Part shown: positions 4,832 to 26,702 of the stretch, one piece after another
Numbering within the stretch: the stretch's first letter is position 1
How the letters are laid out: every line of letters starts with the position of its first letter
Source of the DNA: an uncultured Pseudomonadota bacterium
Lineage (GTDB): Bacteria > Myxococcota_A > UBA796 > GCA-2862545
DNA: 34,633 nt
Direction: 5' to 3'
NCBI GenBank assembly: GCA_937891875.1
Contig: CALATR010000452.1
Location: 1-34,633 of the forward strand
Translations under genes and position numbers: made by a program
The notes under the pieces: generated by a model
Database searches by the model: none
What the model saw: the letters and a program-made list of their open reading frames with translations, nothing else
Told to the model about the DNA's origin: nothing

Positions 4832-6481
4832 ATGCTTCGTGCCCTGCCCGTGCTCGCACTCCTCCTGGCGAGCGGCTGCAAGGGGGAGGACCCCGACGCG
4901 GAGACGCCGGAGACGCCGGAGATCGCTGGTGTGGAGGTGCCCCCCGCGCCCCTCGCCCGCCTGTCGGTGGACGACTATGAGCGGACCCTGCGCGTCATCT
5001 TCGGCGATGACGCCATCGACGCGGTGCAGCCCCAGATCGACGCCCTGCCCCAGGACGCGCCCGAGGGCGAGGGGCTGTTCAGCCGCGACGACCAGCGCAC
5101 CTCCCAGCGCCACATCGACCAGCACTACGCCATCGCCGATGCCCTGGCCAGGGCGTCCGCCGGCGACGGGGCGCTGCGGGTGCGCCTCGGTGGCGCCTGC
5201 GAGACGGTGGACGATGCCTGCCTGCAGCCCTTCGCGACGGCGCTGCTGGACAAGGTGCTGCGCCGGCCGCCGACGGACGCCGAGGTCAGCGCCCTGCTCG
5301 CGCCCGTCGGCGAGTTCGACGGCACCGATCGGGTGCATGCCATCGTCTTCCTGGCGCTGATGAAGCCGGAGCTGGTCTACCACCTGGAGAACCAGGGCAG
5401 CGATGAGGACGGGATGGTCGCGCTCACCGGCTACGAGCTGGCGTCTCGGCTGTCGTACCACTTCTGGGGCGAGCCCCCCGACGCCGAGCTGCTGGACGCG
5501 GCCGCAGACGGCAGCCTGCTCACCGACGAGGGCCTGCGGGCCCAGGTGGACCGCCTCTTCGACGACCCGCGCACGGAGCTGACCCTGCGCGAGTTCTTCG
5601 AGGAGTGGCTGCACCTGCGTCGGGGGGACTTCCTGCCCGGTCCGCGCCACGACCGCCTGTCCGGAGGCATGGACACCACCGGCCTGTCCGCCGAGATGCG
5701 CGAGGAGACCCACGCGCTGCTCTACCATGCCATCTACGCCGAGCCGCACACCTGGTCGGACGTGCTGCTCACCCGCGAGTCCTTCGCCCGCTCGGACCGG
5801 CTGGCCTCGCTGTACGGCGTGGACGCCTGGGACGGCAGCGGCGCTCGACCCCAGCTTCCGCCCGCCGAGCGTGCGGGCCTGCTCACCCGGGCGGGGGTCC
5901 TGGCCACGTCGGACGGCTCCACCAATCCCTTCCGCCGGGGCGCGTTCATCCGCCGCCTGGTGCTGTGCGAGCACGTCAACCCGCCGCCCGGCAACCTGCC
6001 GCCAGACGCCCTGGTCCCCCCCGAGACCACTGCGTCCACGTCCACCCGAGACGCCTTCGCCGCCAAGGTCGAGGGCGCGCAGTGCCGGGACTGCCACGCC
6101 CAGTTCAGCGCGCTCGGCTACGCCATGGAGTCCTACGACGGCTTCGGGCGCTTCCGCACCCGGGAGCAGCTGGTCGACTCCGCGGGCAGGGACCTGGGCT
6201 TCGTGGACGTCGATGCCGCCGTCACCACCCGGATCGACGGGGAGGAGGTGGCGCTGGCGGGCGGGGTGGCCCTGTCCGAGCAGATCGCTGGCTCCGAGGA
6301 CGCCCGGCAGTGCCTGGCGCGCCAGTACTTCCGCTTCGCCCACCGCCGGGTCGAGACCGGGGCGGACGCGGGGCTGATCGGCCACTGGTCCGACGCCCTG
6401 GCCGACGGCGAGCCCATGGGGCCCTGGCTTCGCCGGATCGCCCTGCACGCGAGCTTCCGCTACCGCGCCATCGAGGAGTGA
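4832..6481 (+). CDS. DUF1592-type (DUF1587/1592/1595/1588/1585) secreted lipoprotein with CxxCH motif
   Basis: MLRALPVLALLLASGCKG lipobox; RLSVDDYERTLRVIFG; LKPELVYHLE...LASRLSYHFWGEPPDAELL; CRDCHAQFSALGYAMESYDGFGRFR. All typical of this planctomycete/myxobacterial family. Confidence 0.85.
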   Translation: MLRALPVLALLLASGCKGEDPDAETPETPEIAGVEVPPAPLARLSVDDYERTLRVIFGDDAIDAVQPQIDALPQDAPEGEGLFSRDDQRTSQRHIDQHYAIADALARASAGDGALRVRLGGACETVDDACLQPFATALLDKVLRRPPTDAEVSALLAPVGEFDGTDRVHAIVFLALMKPELVYHLENQGSDEDGMVALTGYELASRLSYHFWGEPPDAELLDAAADGSLLTDEGLRAQVDRLFDDPRTELTLREFFEEWLHLRRGDFLPGPRHDRLSGGMDTTGLSAEMREETHALLYHAIYAEPHTWSDVLLTRESFARSDRLASLYGVDAWDGSGARPQLPPAERAGLLTRAGVLATSDGSTNPFRRGAFIRRLVLCEHVNPPPGNLPPDALVPPETTASTSTRDAFAAKVEGAQCRDCHAQFSALGYAMESYDGFGRFRTREQLVDSAGRDLGFVDVDAAVTTRIDGEEVALAGGVALSEQIAGSEDARQCLARQYFRFAHRRVETGADAGLIGHWSDALADGEPMGPWLRRIALHASFRYRAIEE

Positions 6482-6485
6482 GTCG

Positions 6486-8108
6486 ATGAGGTACTTCCGC
6501 TCCACCCGACGCATGTTCCTGACCGGCCTGGGCGGCGTCCTGGCGATCCCGCTGCTGCCCTCGCTGCTCCCCCGCGGCCTGCGCGCCGAGGCCCTCGCCG
6601 ACGAGGGGGACGTGGCGCGACGGTTCATCGCGATCAAGGGCTACTCTGGCGTCCCTGTGCTGGACCTGTACCCCCGCACCGCACCCGGCGGGTACACCAC
6701 CCGGGGTCGCGACGGCACGGTGGTGCTCTCCGATCCGCTGGCCACGGCGACCGGACGGCACAGCAACGGCAACGCGTACTACGGTCACCAGGCCCCGCTC
6801 TCCGACTTTGCCGAGACCGGCCTGGGCAACATCTTCGGCCAGCACTTCAACCGCTACCTGCAGGCCATGACCCTGTTCCGGGGTCTGGACTTCATGCCCA
6901 ACCTCAACCACAACGACGGGGGCTTCCTGGGCAACCTGGGCCTGCGGACCAACGGGGTGGGCGGGGCGCTGCCGGGCGCGCAGATCAACGTCACCATCGA
7001 TCAGGTGATCGCGGCGAGCAGCGCGGTCTACCCGAGGGCCCCGGTCGGGCCGCGGATCCTGCACCTGGGCAGCCGCACCAACACCTGCAGCTTCGAGCCC
7101 CGGGACCCGGACAACCTGCTGGCCACGGGTGCTGGCGCCGTGCAGCAGGCCAAGGCCTACACCAATCCCAAGGTCGCCTTCGACGCCCTCTTCAGCTCCT
7201 TCGAGCCCGGCGGATCCGCCCCCAGCCCGTCGTCCAGGCTGGTGGACCGGGTGGTCGAGGACTACCGCCGGGTGCGCGACGGGCGCCTGCTGTCCGCAGC
7301 CGATCGCCAGGTGTTGGACCGCCACCTGACCTACCTGACCGAGCTGGAGGAGCGGGTCAGCTCGGATGACACCCGGGTGTGCGAGCCCGGTGACGGTCCC
7401 GGCGACTTCGCCACGGGGGGCGAGTTCGACGTCACCGTGGACACCATCGAGCGCTTCTTCACTCAGATGGTGGACCTGCTGGCCCTGGCGCTGGCCTGCG
7501 ACGTCACCCGCGTGGCCACCCTCGACATCCAGAAGATGGTGGTCCGCGACGGGGGGCAGGTCTTCGGCATGGGCGACAGCCAGAACGCGGGCTCTGCCGG
7601 GCGCTCCAACTGGCACCTCCAGGCCCACAACTGGGACGACAACGCCAGGCGCTGGATCGGCCTGGGCTACCAGTGGACCGCCCAGGAGGTGATCCTGCGC
7701 CTGCTGGACCGCCTGGACGAGGTGACCGAGTCGGACGGGCAGAGCCTGCTGCACCACTCCCTGGTCCTGTGGGGCAACGAGCTGTCCTTCAACCACCTCA
7801 ACTACAGCGTGCCCACGGTGATGTGGGGCAGCGCAGGCGGCCGCGTGCAGGCCGGGCGCTACCTGGACTACGTCGACTGGGACCGCCCGGTGCGCTTCTC
7901 CCAGCACGACGGTGCGGTCATCGAGGGCGTGCAGTACAACCGCCTGCTGGTCAGCGCCATGCAGGCCATGGGACTGCAGCCCGAGGAGTACGAGATCGCG
8001 TCGGGGCGGGGCTTTGGCGAGACCCACCACGTGGACAAGGACGGCGCCTGGGCCATCGACTACGACGACAGCAACGTGGGCCAGCCGCTGCCCGATCTGC
8101 TGACCTGA
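6486..8108 (+). CDS. DUF1552 domain-containing protein, probable Tat-type signal
   Basis: MRYFRSTRRMFLTGLGGVLAIPLLPSLL twin-arginine leader. Lies directly after the DUF1592 gene, as in many genomes. LNHNDGGFLGN and DVTRVATLDIQKM are family-like stretches. Confidence 0.85.
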   Translation: MRYFRSTRRMFLTGLGGVLAIPLLPSLLPRGLRAEALADEGDVARRFIAIKGYSGVPVLDLYPRTAPGGYTTRGRDGTVVLSDPLATATGRHSNGNAYYGHQAPLSDFAETGLGNIFGQHFNRYLQAMTLFRGLDFMPNLNHNDGGFLGNLGLRTNGVGGALPGAQINVTIDQVIAASSAVYPRAPVGPRILHLGSRTNTCSFEPRDPDNLLATGAGAVQQAKAYTNPKVAFDALFSSFEPGGSAPSPSSRLVDRVVEDYRRVRDGRLLSAADRQVLDRHLTYLTELEERVSSDDTRVCEPGDGPGDFATGGEFDVTVDTIERFFTQMVDLLALALACDVTRVATLDIQKMVVRDGGQVFGMGDSQNAGSAGRSNWHLQAHNWDDNARRWIGLGYQWTAQEVILRLLDRLDEVTESDGQSLLHHSLVLWGNELSFNHLNYSVPTVMWGSAGGRVQAGRYLDYVDWDRPVRFSQHDGAVIEGVQYNRLLVSAMQAMGLQPEEYEIASGRGFGETHHVDKDGAWAIDYDDSNVGQPLPDLLT

Positions 8109-24395: not shown

Positions 24396-24744
24396 GGGAA
24401 CCTCCAGGCAGAGCGCGGCTGTGCGGACGGGCGGGCTTGCCGCGTCCGAGGGTCTCGGTGAGTGGGCGTCTGGTCCGCCCGGAAGATCACAGCGCATGGG
24501 GCGCCGTGGGTGAGGTCTACGCAGGGGCCGGAGGTTCATTGCAGGAAATCGACGCTGGCTGCAGGGCGGGCGGCCCACGATTCCTCGCCCGCGGAGGGTG
24601 GAGCGACTATTCCGAACCCGCAGCTCACGTTGTCGCCGACCTCGCCTGGTGCGCCCGCCCCACGTCCTGGGGCATGACGTCCGCCGTCGGCGCGCGTCTC
24701 CGGCCCCCCGTCGAGGCGCATCACCCGGACGCCCCGAGCACTTC

Positions 24745-26133
24745 GTGCACGTCGAACTCAGTGAAGCCCTCCCCGCCCTGGTCGCGCTGATCGAGGGCCA
24801 CCTCCTCCGAGAGCGGGTCGAGCCGGTCCGTACGCCGCTCTCGCCCGAAGCCCTGCTCGAACGCCTCGATCTGGCGCTCGGTGAGCAGGGCGTGCCCTTC
24901 GGCGACGTCGTCGAGCAGCTCCACGAGGTGCTCGCCGTCACCCCCACCACCGCCAGCGATCACTTCTTCAACCAGCTCTTCGGTGGACGCGACGGCGCGG
25001 CCGTGGTCGGCGAGGCGCTGGCGGGCGTGCTCAACAACAGCATGTACACCTACAAGGTCGCCGGTGTGCACGTGCTCATCGAGCTGCTGCTGGTGAAGCG
25101 CATGGGCGCGCTCATGGGCTACGACGAGCCGGAGGGCGTGTTCACGCCGGGCGGCTCGCTGTCGAACCTGGCGGGCATGGTGATGGCGCGCAACGAGGCC
25201 GTGCCTGACCTGATGGACCGCGGCTCGGACGGTCGTGCCCTGCGGATCTACACCTCGGCCGACAGCCACTACTCCATCCGAAAAGCGGCCAGCATGCTGG
25301 GGATCGGGCGGGACAACGTGGTGAAGGTGGCCGTCGACGAGCGTGGGCGCATGGTGCCCGAGGCCCTCACAAAGGCGATCGCCGCGGACCGTGCGGCCGG
25401 CCACGTCCCGGTGATGATCAACGCCACCGCAGGCACGACCGTGCTCGGCGCCTTCGACCCGCTGGAGCCCCTGGCCGACCTCGCCCAGCGCGAGGGGATC
25501 TGGCTGCACGTGGACGCGGCCTACGGGGGGAGCATGGTGTTCCACCCCGACTTTCGCGCGCACTTCGCCGGCATCTCCCGGGCCGACTCCATCACCTGGG
25601 ACGCCCACAAGATGATGGGCGTGCCGCTGACGTGCTCGGTGGTCCTGGTGCGGCACAAGGGCCACCTGACGAAGCACTTCAACGAGACCGCCGACTACCT
25701 GTTCCAGGACGACACCGACGACCTGAACCCGGGCACGCGCTCGCTGCAGTGCGGCCGCCGCAACGACGTGCTCAAGCTCTGGACCGCCTGGAAGACCCAC
25801 GGCGACGAGGGCTACCGCCGTCGGGTGCAGGTCCTGCGTGACAACACCCTGTACGCCCGGGAGATCGTCGAGCGGGAGCCCCGGCTGGAGCTGGTGCGCG
25901 AGCCCGAGTCGCTCAACCTGTGCTTCAAGGTCGGCGGGGCCCGTGCCGACAAGCTGTGCACCGCCATGAATCGCCGCGGGCGGGCGATGGTCGGCCACGC
26001 CTTCGTCGACGGTGAGCCCGTCGTGCGCCTGGTCTTCCTCGATCCGACCCTGCCCCGCGAGCGCATCGACGCCTTCTTCGAGGCCCTGCTGCTGACGGCG
26101 GAGGAAGGCGAGCTTCCGGAGGTGTCCCGATGA
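24745..26133 (+). CDS. Group II PLP-dependent decarboxylase, CSAD/GAD-like (candidate cysteine sulfinate decarboxylase)
   Basis: FFNQLFGGRD, GVFTPGGSLSNLAGMVMAR, ATAGTTVLGAFDPLEPLADL, WLHVDAAYGGS, ITWDAHKMMGVPLTCS (PLP lysine), SLQCGRRNDVLKLWTAWKTHGDEG. Start uncertain: GTG at 24745 or further upstream. Confidence 0.85.
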   Translation: MHVELSEALPALVALIEGHLLRERVEPVRTPLSPEALLERLDLALGEQGVPFGDVVEQLHEVLAVTPTTASDHFFNQLFGGRDGAAVVGEALAGVLNNSMYTYKVAGVHVLIELLLVKRMGALMGYDEPEGVFTPGGSLSNLAGMVMARNEAVPDLMDRGSDGRALRIYTSADSHYSIRKAASMLGIGRDNVVKVAVDERGRMVPEALTKAIAADRAAGHVPVMINATAGTTVLGAFDPLEPLADLAQREGIWLHVDAAYGGSMVFHPDFRAHFAGISRADSITWDAHKMMGVPLTCSVVLVRHKGHLTKHFNETADYLFQDDTDDLNPGTRSLQCGRRNDVLKLWTAWKTHGDEGYRRRVQVLRDNTLYAREIVEREPRLELVREPESLNLCFKVGGARADKLCTAMNRRGRAMVGHAFVDGEPVVRLVFLDPTLPRERIDAFFEALLLTAEEGELPEVSR

Positions 26134-26702
26134 GCGCGCGCAGAGAACGCCTGGACCTGCTGATCAGCAAGCTCGAAGCTTCGGTATCGTTCGATGACTG
26201 CCGCCGGGCACGCTGCCGCGCGGTGGAGTCGGCATTGTCCGAGGCGGTCCTGCCCGGCGCGCCGCTCCTGCCCGCCGATCTGCGCGCCCCCTGCGCCGAG
26301 CACTACGCCCGCCACCTGGTGCACCGCGATCCCGAGGGTCGCTTCTCGGTCATCGCCATGGTGTGGGCGCCGGGGCAGGGCACGCCGATCCATGACCACG
26401 GCGGGCTGTGGTGCGTCGAGTGCGTGCTGCAGGGCCGCATCGAGGTGCGTGCCTACCGTCCGACCGACGCCGAGGGAGACCGCGCCGACGTCGACTTCCA
26501 GTGCGCCGAGGTCATCCGCGCCGAGCTGGGCGAGTCGGGACACCTGATCCCGCCGCTCGACCACCACGTGATCTGCAACCCCTTCGACGAGGTCGCCGTC
26601 ACCCTGCACGTCTACGGCGGCGATCTCGACTGGTGCCGGGTCTTCGAGCCCCTTCCCGAGGGCGGCTACGTCGCGGTGCGCAAGGAGCTGGCGACCGACT
26701 GA
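26130..26702 (+). CDS. Cysteine dioxygenase family protein (cupin)
   Basis: ATGA overlap with the upstream decarboxylase. GTPIHDHGGLWCVECVLQG (two His) and DHHVICNPFDEVAVTLHVYGG (third His) match the thiol dioxygenase 3-His pattern. Confidence 0.8.
   Translation: MSARRERLDLLISKLEASVSFDDCRRARCRAVESALSEAVLPGAPLLPADLRAPCAEHYARHLVHRDPEGRFSVIAMVWAPGQGTPIHDHGGLWCVECVLQGRIEVRAYRPTDAEGDRADVDFQCAEVIRAELGESGHLIPPLDHHVICNPFDEVAVTLHVYGGDLDWCRVFEPLPEGGYVAVRKELATD

Follow-up and report, generated by a model that had tools for sequence, protein, structure and literature searches.

A cysteine sulfinate decarboxylase and cysteine dioxygenase gene pair, a probable hypotaurine operon in a Myxococcota-related bacterium

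Introduction

A bacterial taurine pathway built from cysteine sulfinate decarboxylase (CSAD) and cysteine dioxygenase (CDO) was reportedly described by Agnello et al. in 2013, with the CSAD of Synechococcus sp. PCC 7335, and CSAD homologues are said to lie often in operons with bacterial CDOs. A later article (PMC12585060) cites Agnello et al. 2013 (ACS Chem Biol 8:2264) on this CDO/CSAD pathway. The Synechococcus sp. PCC 7335 system has in common with the gene pair examined in this study the two enzyme classes and the three-residue recognition motif; the pair differs in being Myxococcota-related, in its gene order (CSAD then CDO), in its 4-base overlap and in having a CDO on a scaffold resembling that of 3-mercaptopropionate dioxygenase (3MDO, or MDO). 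Judged from its sequence, the pair is very likely a solid new example of a bacterial operon type known since 2013, and not a new kind of system.

Results

The window, by which we mean the whole stretch of 34,633 nucleotides that was analysed, carries on its plus strand a gene for a putative CSAD-type PLP group II decarboxylase of 462 amino acids with a GTG start (24745..26133) and a gene for a putative Arg-type cysteine dioxygenase, a CDO_I cupin of 190 amino acids (26130..26702). When the frames were re-read from the sequence (GTG 24745 to TGA 26131-26133, and ATG 26130 to TGA 26700-26702), the coordinates given for both genes in the first-pass annotation proved correct, as did the ATGA stop/start overlap (26130..26133, plus strand), which may allow translational coupling and is kept in the sister genome (L003). 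The decarboxylase frame stays open upstream as far as GTG 24598; the start was placed at GTG 24745 because the protein of the sister species begins, with TTG, at the aligned residue. On the downstream side, the dioxygenase stop is followed 3 bases later by the end of a convergent matrixin-like gene (28304-26706), and upstream lies a divergent, minus-strand lipoprotein-like gene; the two neighbours therefore make the pair a bounded two-gene unit. The gene arrangement points to 24397..24744 as a presumed divergent promoter region, in which a consensus search found no sigma-70-like promoter, and promoter and terminator scans likewise found nothing. Elsewhere in the window, at 4838-8108, adjoining DUF1592/DUF1588 and DUF1552 genes resemble the planctomycete-type pair of a cytochrome-like and an HXXSHH protein.

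The decarboxylase matched Pyridoxal_deC (PF00282) with 277.8 bits. Its solved relatives ranked in the order CSAD (320 and 317 bits), GADL1 (290) and GAD (about 271), and identity was 44% to mouse CSAD, 40% to GADL1 and 37% to GAD1/2. The group II PLP decarboxylase fold is present together with the lysine of the HK motif, Lys289 (25609..25611, plus strand), which in the alignment matches the HK found in human CSAD, GADL1 and GAD and which we take, from knowledge of the family, to be the catalytic Schiff-base lysine. A CSAD-type substrate-pocket motif, Phe79-(19)-Ser99-x-Tyr101, lies at 24979..25047 on the plus strand. The aligned triad reads FSY in the decarboxylase and in human and mouse CSAD, YSY in GADL1 and SNF in GAD1/2; both the Ser-(19)-Asn-x-Phe pocket of GAD65/67 and the GADL1-type Tyr at the first position, here Phe79, are absent. 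Work comparing the structures of the mammalian enzymes identified precisely this Phe (CSAD), Tyr (GADL1) or Ser (GAD) as the pocket difference behind specificity (PMC7367687). The motifs quoted earlier for this protein, QLF and QCGRR, were also right, since both match human and mouse CSAD, with QLS and QCGRH in the solved GAD65 and GAD67. Animal CSAD (2JIS, 6ZEK) is thus matched at 44% identity over the core, with the F-S-Y pocket and QCGRR identical, whereas the window decarboxylase is bacterial and falls outside the animal clade; GADL1 shares the pocket Ser and Tyr but has Tyr in place of Phe and prefers aspartate. Together these features support the identification of the protein as a cysteine sulfinate decarboxylase.

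The genome itself bears on this question. No other PF00282 decarboxylase was found in it (at a genome completeness of about 92%, this absence is uncertain), and panD is present, so that beta-alanine supply does not need the window decarboxylase. With panD and a single detected PF00282 member, neither GABA synthesis nor CoA supply would explain the enzyme. The preference of the first-pass annotation for CSAD activity over GABA synthesis is supported by the FSY pocket and by the lead of CSAD in both bit score and identity.

We regard it as improbable that the protein works chiefly as an aspartate 1-decarboxylase (GADL1- or PanP-like) and produces beta-alanine, with the dioxygenase an incidental neighbour. 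The 40% identity to GADL1, an enzyme that acts on aspartate (PMC5947694), the weak aspartate activity of CSAD itself (PMC7367687) and the many homologues without a CDO would all fit such an activity, but the discriminating position holds Phe and not Tyr, panD is available, and the PanP model scored 155.6 bits, far under its cut-off of 606.1. Moreover, all 29 CDO-linked homologues are of the Phe type and none of the seven bacterial Tyr-type homologues is linked (counts not corrected for relatedness), and the gene overlap and natural fusions speak against an incidental neighbour.

A decarboxylase tree, to which the first-pass annotation had looked for a decision between CSAD and GAD, was built but could not give one. 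The animal CSAD, GADL1 and GAD fall together in a single clade (UFB 100), itself joined to Bacteroidota proteins (UFB 100), so that phylogeny alone cannot tell CSAD from GAD, and the active-site motif carries the argument. The window decarboxylase was placed in another clade, with Myxococcota-related proteins. Because nearly all bacterial clade relatives in a sample picked by similarity to the window protein carry an F-S-Y or Y-S-Y pocket, the GAD pocket looks derived. In this sampling, which is skewed towards the window protein, the nesting of the animal GAD65/67, CSAD and GADL1 clade with Bacteroidota CSAD-type proteins hints that a CSAD-like enzyme was the ancestor of animal GAD. The bacterial homologues with a GADL1-type Tyr-Ser-Tyr pocket (L008, L011, L048, L062, L079, L081 and L088), all without a linked CDO, are candidate aspartate decarboxylases.

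The dioxygenase matched CDO_I (PF05995) with 35.2 bits, above the cut-off of 23, and its AlphaFold2 model (pLDDT 94.8) has a thiol-dioxygenase fold. Among PDB matches it is nearest overall, by sequence and predicted fold, to 3-mercaptopropionate dioxygenases (6XB9, 4TLF), with 69 bits against 49 for human CDO1. The concern raised beforehand that the enzyme might prefer 3-mercaptopropionate was therefore a fair one as regards overall similarity, but its binding residues match those of CDO. Arg61 (26310..26312, plus strand) is, when aligned with human CDO1, the equivalent of CDO Arg60, the cysteine carboxylate contact, whereas the three MDO-type chains in the alignment carry Gln; neither Gln63 nor Arg168 of MDO is found, the aligned residues being Arg and Val, with Val at the position of the carboxylate-binding Arg168 of the Azotobacter enzyme (Av3MDO). 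The motif HDHGGLWC (26391..26414, plus strand) supplies by alignment the iron ligands His88 and His90 and Cys95, the equivalent of the cross-linking Cys93; the third ligand, His146, and the Thr158-His160-Tyr162 network lie at 26565..26615 on the same strand. Both the 3-His iron site and the S/T-H-Y network are thus present. These features, with the Arg60, Cys93 and Tyr157 equivalents, are shared with mammalian CDO1, from which the window dioxygenase differs in overall sequence (29% identity) and in having Gly-Gly where CDO1 has Ser-Pro after Tyr157. Relative to the 3-mercaptopropionate dioxygenases, its closest scaffold, it has one extra residue in the HxH...C loop besides the CDO-type Arg, and it carries a natural Cys at the position engineered in 4WVZ, the G95C cross-linked 3MDO variant.

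That the dioxygenase acts on 3-mercaptopropionate or some other thiol, with the pair handling that compound instead, is very improbable. Its best PDB matches by sequence and fold are 3MDO, and mercaptosuccinate dioxygenase is also close; the Arg in place of Gln and the Val at the Arg168 position argue against it, as does the fact that sulfinopropionate, the product from 3-mercaptopropionate, would offer the coupled decarboxylase no alpha-amino acid. Although overall similarity speaks for 3MDO, we rejected that assignment on the binding residues, and the evidence supports an Arg-type cysteine dioxygenase as the sequence-based assignment. The genome encodes another CDO_I protein (L002, contig C1174:15435-15764), which has Gly in place of Cys93 and beside which no CSAD was found.

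In the sister genome both genes and their ATGA overlap are retained, with a DNA identity of about 71%, and in blastn around the pair similarity starts and stops at the two genes, with no other gene matched; because the pair persists where the flanks do not, chance adjacency is argued against. In a wider survey of loci with CSAD relatives, a CDO lay within 500 bp of CSAD or was fused to it in 29 of 85, a lower bound owing to contig ends; the adjacency recurs among relatives. The 29 arrangements comprised 17 CDO-CSAD, four CSAD-CDO, six divergent and two fused. Of five CDO_I genes found among 198 sampled Bacteroidota genomes, four adjoin CSAD. Within the sampled order, seven genomes encode a CSAD-like protein that is 50% or more identical, with a linked CDO only in this genus. 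No CDO_I was seen in 24 of 50 CSAD-bearing genomes, and the decarboxylase can therefore work without this partner. When the linked label is mapped on the dioxygenase tree, six changes are required, at least four of them forced by well-supported branches, because of which CDO has apparently been recruited to CSAD repeatedly, at least four times.

Several neighbouring observations were made in the same sample. The natural CDO-CSAD fusions (L047:1897-3819 and L078:3494-5359), of 641 and 622 amino acids, come from Bacteroidota metagenome-assembled genomes and hold both Pfam domains in one frame. A sodium:solute symporter gene (PF00474) lies within 2.5 kb of CSAD at L050:1608-3140 and 22 other loci of Bacteroidota and Planctomycetota, and its recurrence makes it a candidate hypotaurine/taurine or sulfinate transporter.

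Animal CDOs cross-link Cys93 to Tyr157, a feature usually described as eukaryotic. An older review noted that the cysteine is absent from many bacterial CDOs (PMC4019311), and a recent paper stated that the Tyr of bacterial forms is unmodified (PMC8050391). By alignment the window dioxygenase has both equivalents, Cys95 and Tyr162, and the counterparts of Arg60, Cys93 and Tyr157 are kept in all 33 distinct CSAD-linked CDOs sampled. Cysteine occupies the Cys93 position in 33 of 33 linked and 13 of 36 unlinked Arg-type CDOs (Fisher p = 2e-9 on raw counts), but we do not claim that Cys93 is tied to CSAD linkage, since the tree provides only four to six independent contrasts (sign test p = 1). Within Myxococcota, Cys93 does not follow the presence of CSAD: five CSAD-free genomes have it, and five CSAD-bearing ones with an unlinked CDO lack it. 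Because all 33 linked CDOs keep these residues across lineages that recruited the enzyme separately, and because the window enzyme has a natural cysteine on an MDO-like scaffold, it is possible, if on balance rather doubtful, that the CDO used by bacterial taurine operons makes for itself the Cys-Tyr thioether cofactor hitherto described for eukaryotic CDOs.

The Cys93 position varies in other ways among the relatives. In L186:1351-3003, where CDO_I and methyltransferase domains are fused, the residue is Trp, as it is in Myxococcota proteins such as L139 and L142. In the CDO-like paralogues L160 and L181, from Bacteroidota with CSAD, the iron-ligand His88 is lost to Tyr or Phe, and these may be non-catalytic.

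Discussion

We consider it highly probable that the pair is a two-gene operon for hypotaurine synthesis, a reading whose observed basis lies in the genes, their overlap, the pocket residues, the fold, the recurrent linkage and the fusions. The dioxygenase (3-His Fe(II), Arg type) would convert L-cysteine, its predicted substrate, to cysteine sulfinate, which the translationally overlapping PLP enzyme would decarboxylate to hypotaurine, the predicted product; the two genes may be translationally coupled at the ATGA overlap. Oxidation of hypotaurine to taurine would fall to another enzyme or occur spontaneously; the two-gene operon holds no gene for this step, and when a hypotaurine oxidase of the FMO type was sought, the hits were all weak and uninformative. 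The first-pass proposal of a dedicated taurine operon is thus upheld for the CSAD/CDO pair and predicted hypotaurine formation and falls short at the last step, for want of a hypotaurine-oxidising gene in the operon. Its assignment of the two enzymes as CSAD and CDO agrees with the pocket motif, the residues separating CDO from MDO, the recurrent linkage and fusions, and panD. Least credible is a role as glutamate decarboxylase, in GABA formation or acid resistance, which the common Pfam family and 37% identity to GAD65/67 might suggest but against which stand the missing Ser/Asn/Phe pocket, a score of 32.9 against a cut-off of 380.4 for the bacterial GadA/B-type model TIGR01788 and the neighbouring thiol dioxygenase. 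The GAD and aspartate decarboxylase assignments were rejected on the pocket residues and panD.

As a probable hypotaurine operon, the pair would extend the animal-type taurine route of bacteria to a Myxococcota-related lineage. Because CDO appears to have been recruited separately to the same decarboxylase, either as a neighbour or as a fusion, the genomic record points to a strong functional link between the two enzymes independently of any assay. If the tentative cofactor suggestion is true, the cross-link would be tied to pathway flux and not to eukaryotes. The conserved cysteine offers a direct way to probe the purpose of the Cys-Tyr cofactor, with bacterial relatives that carry Gly at this position allowing the comparison.
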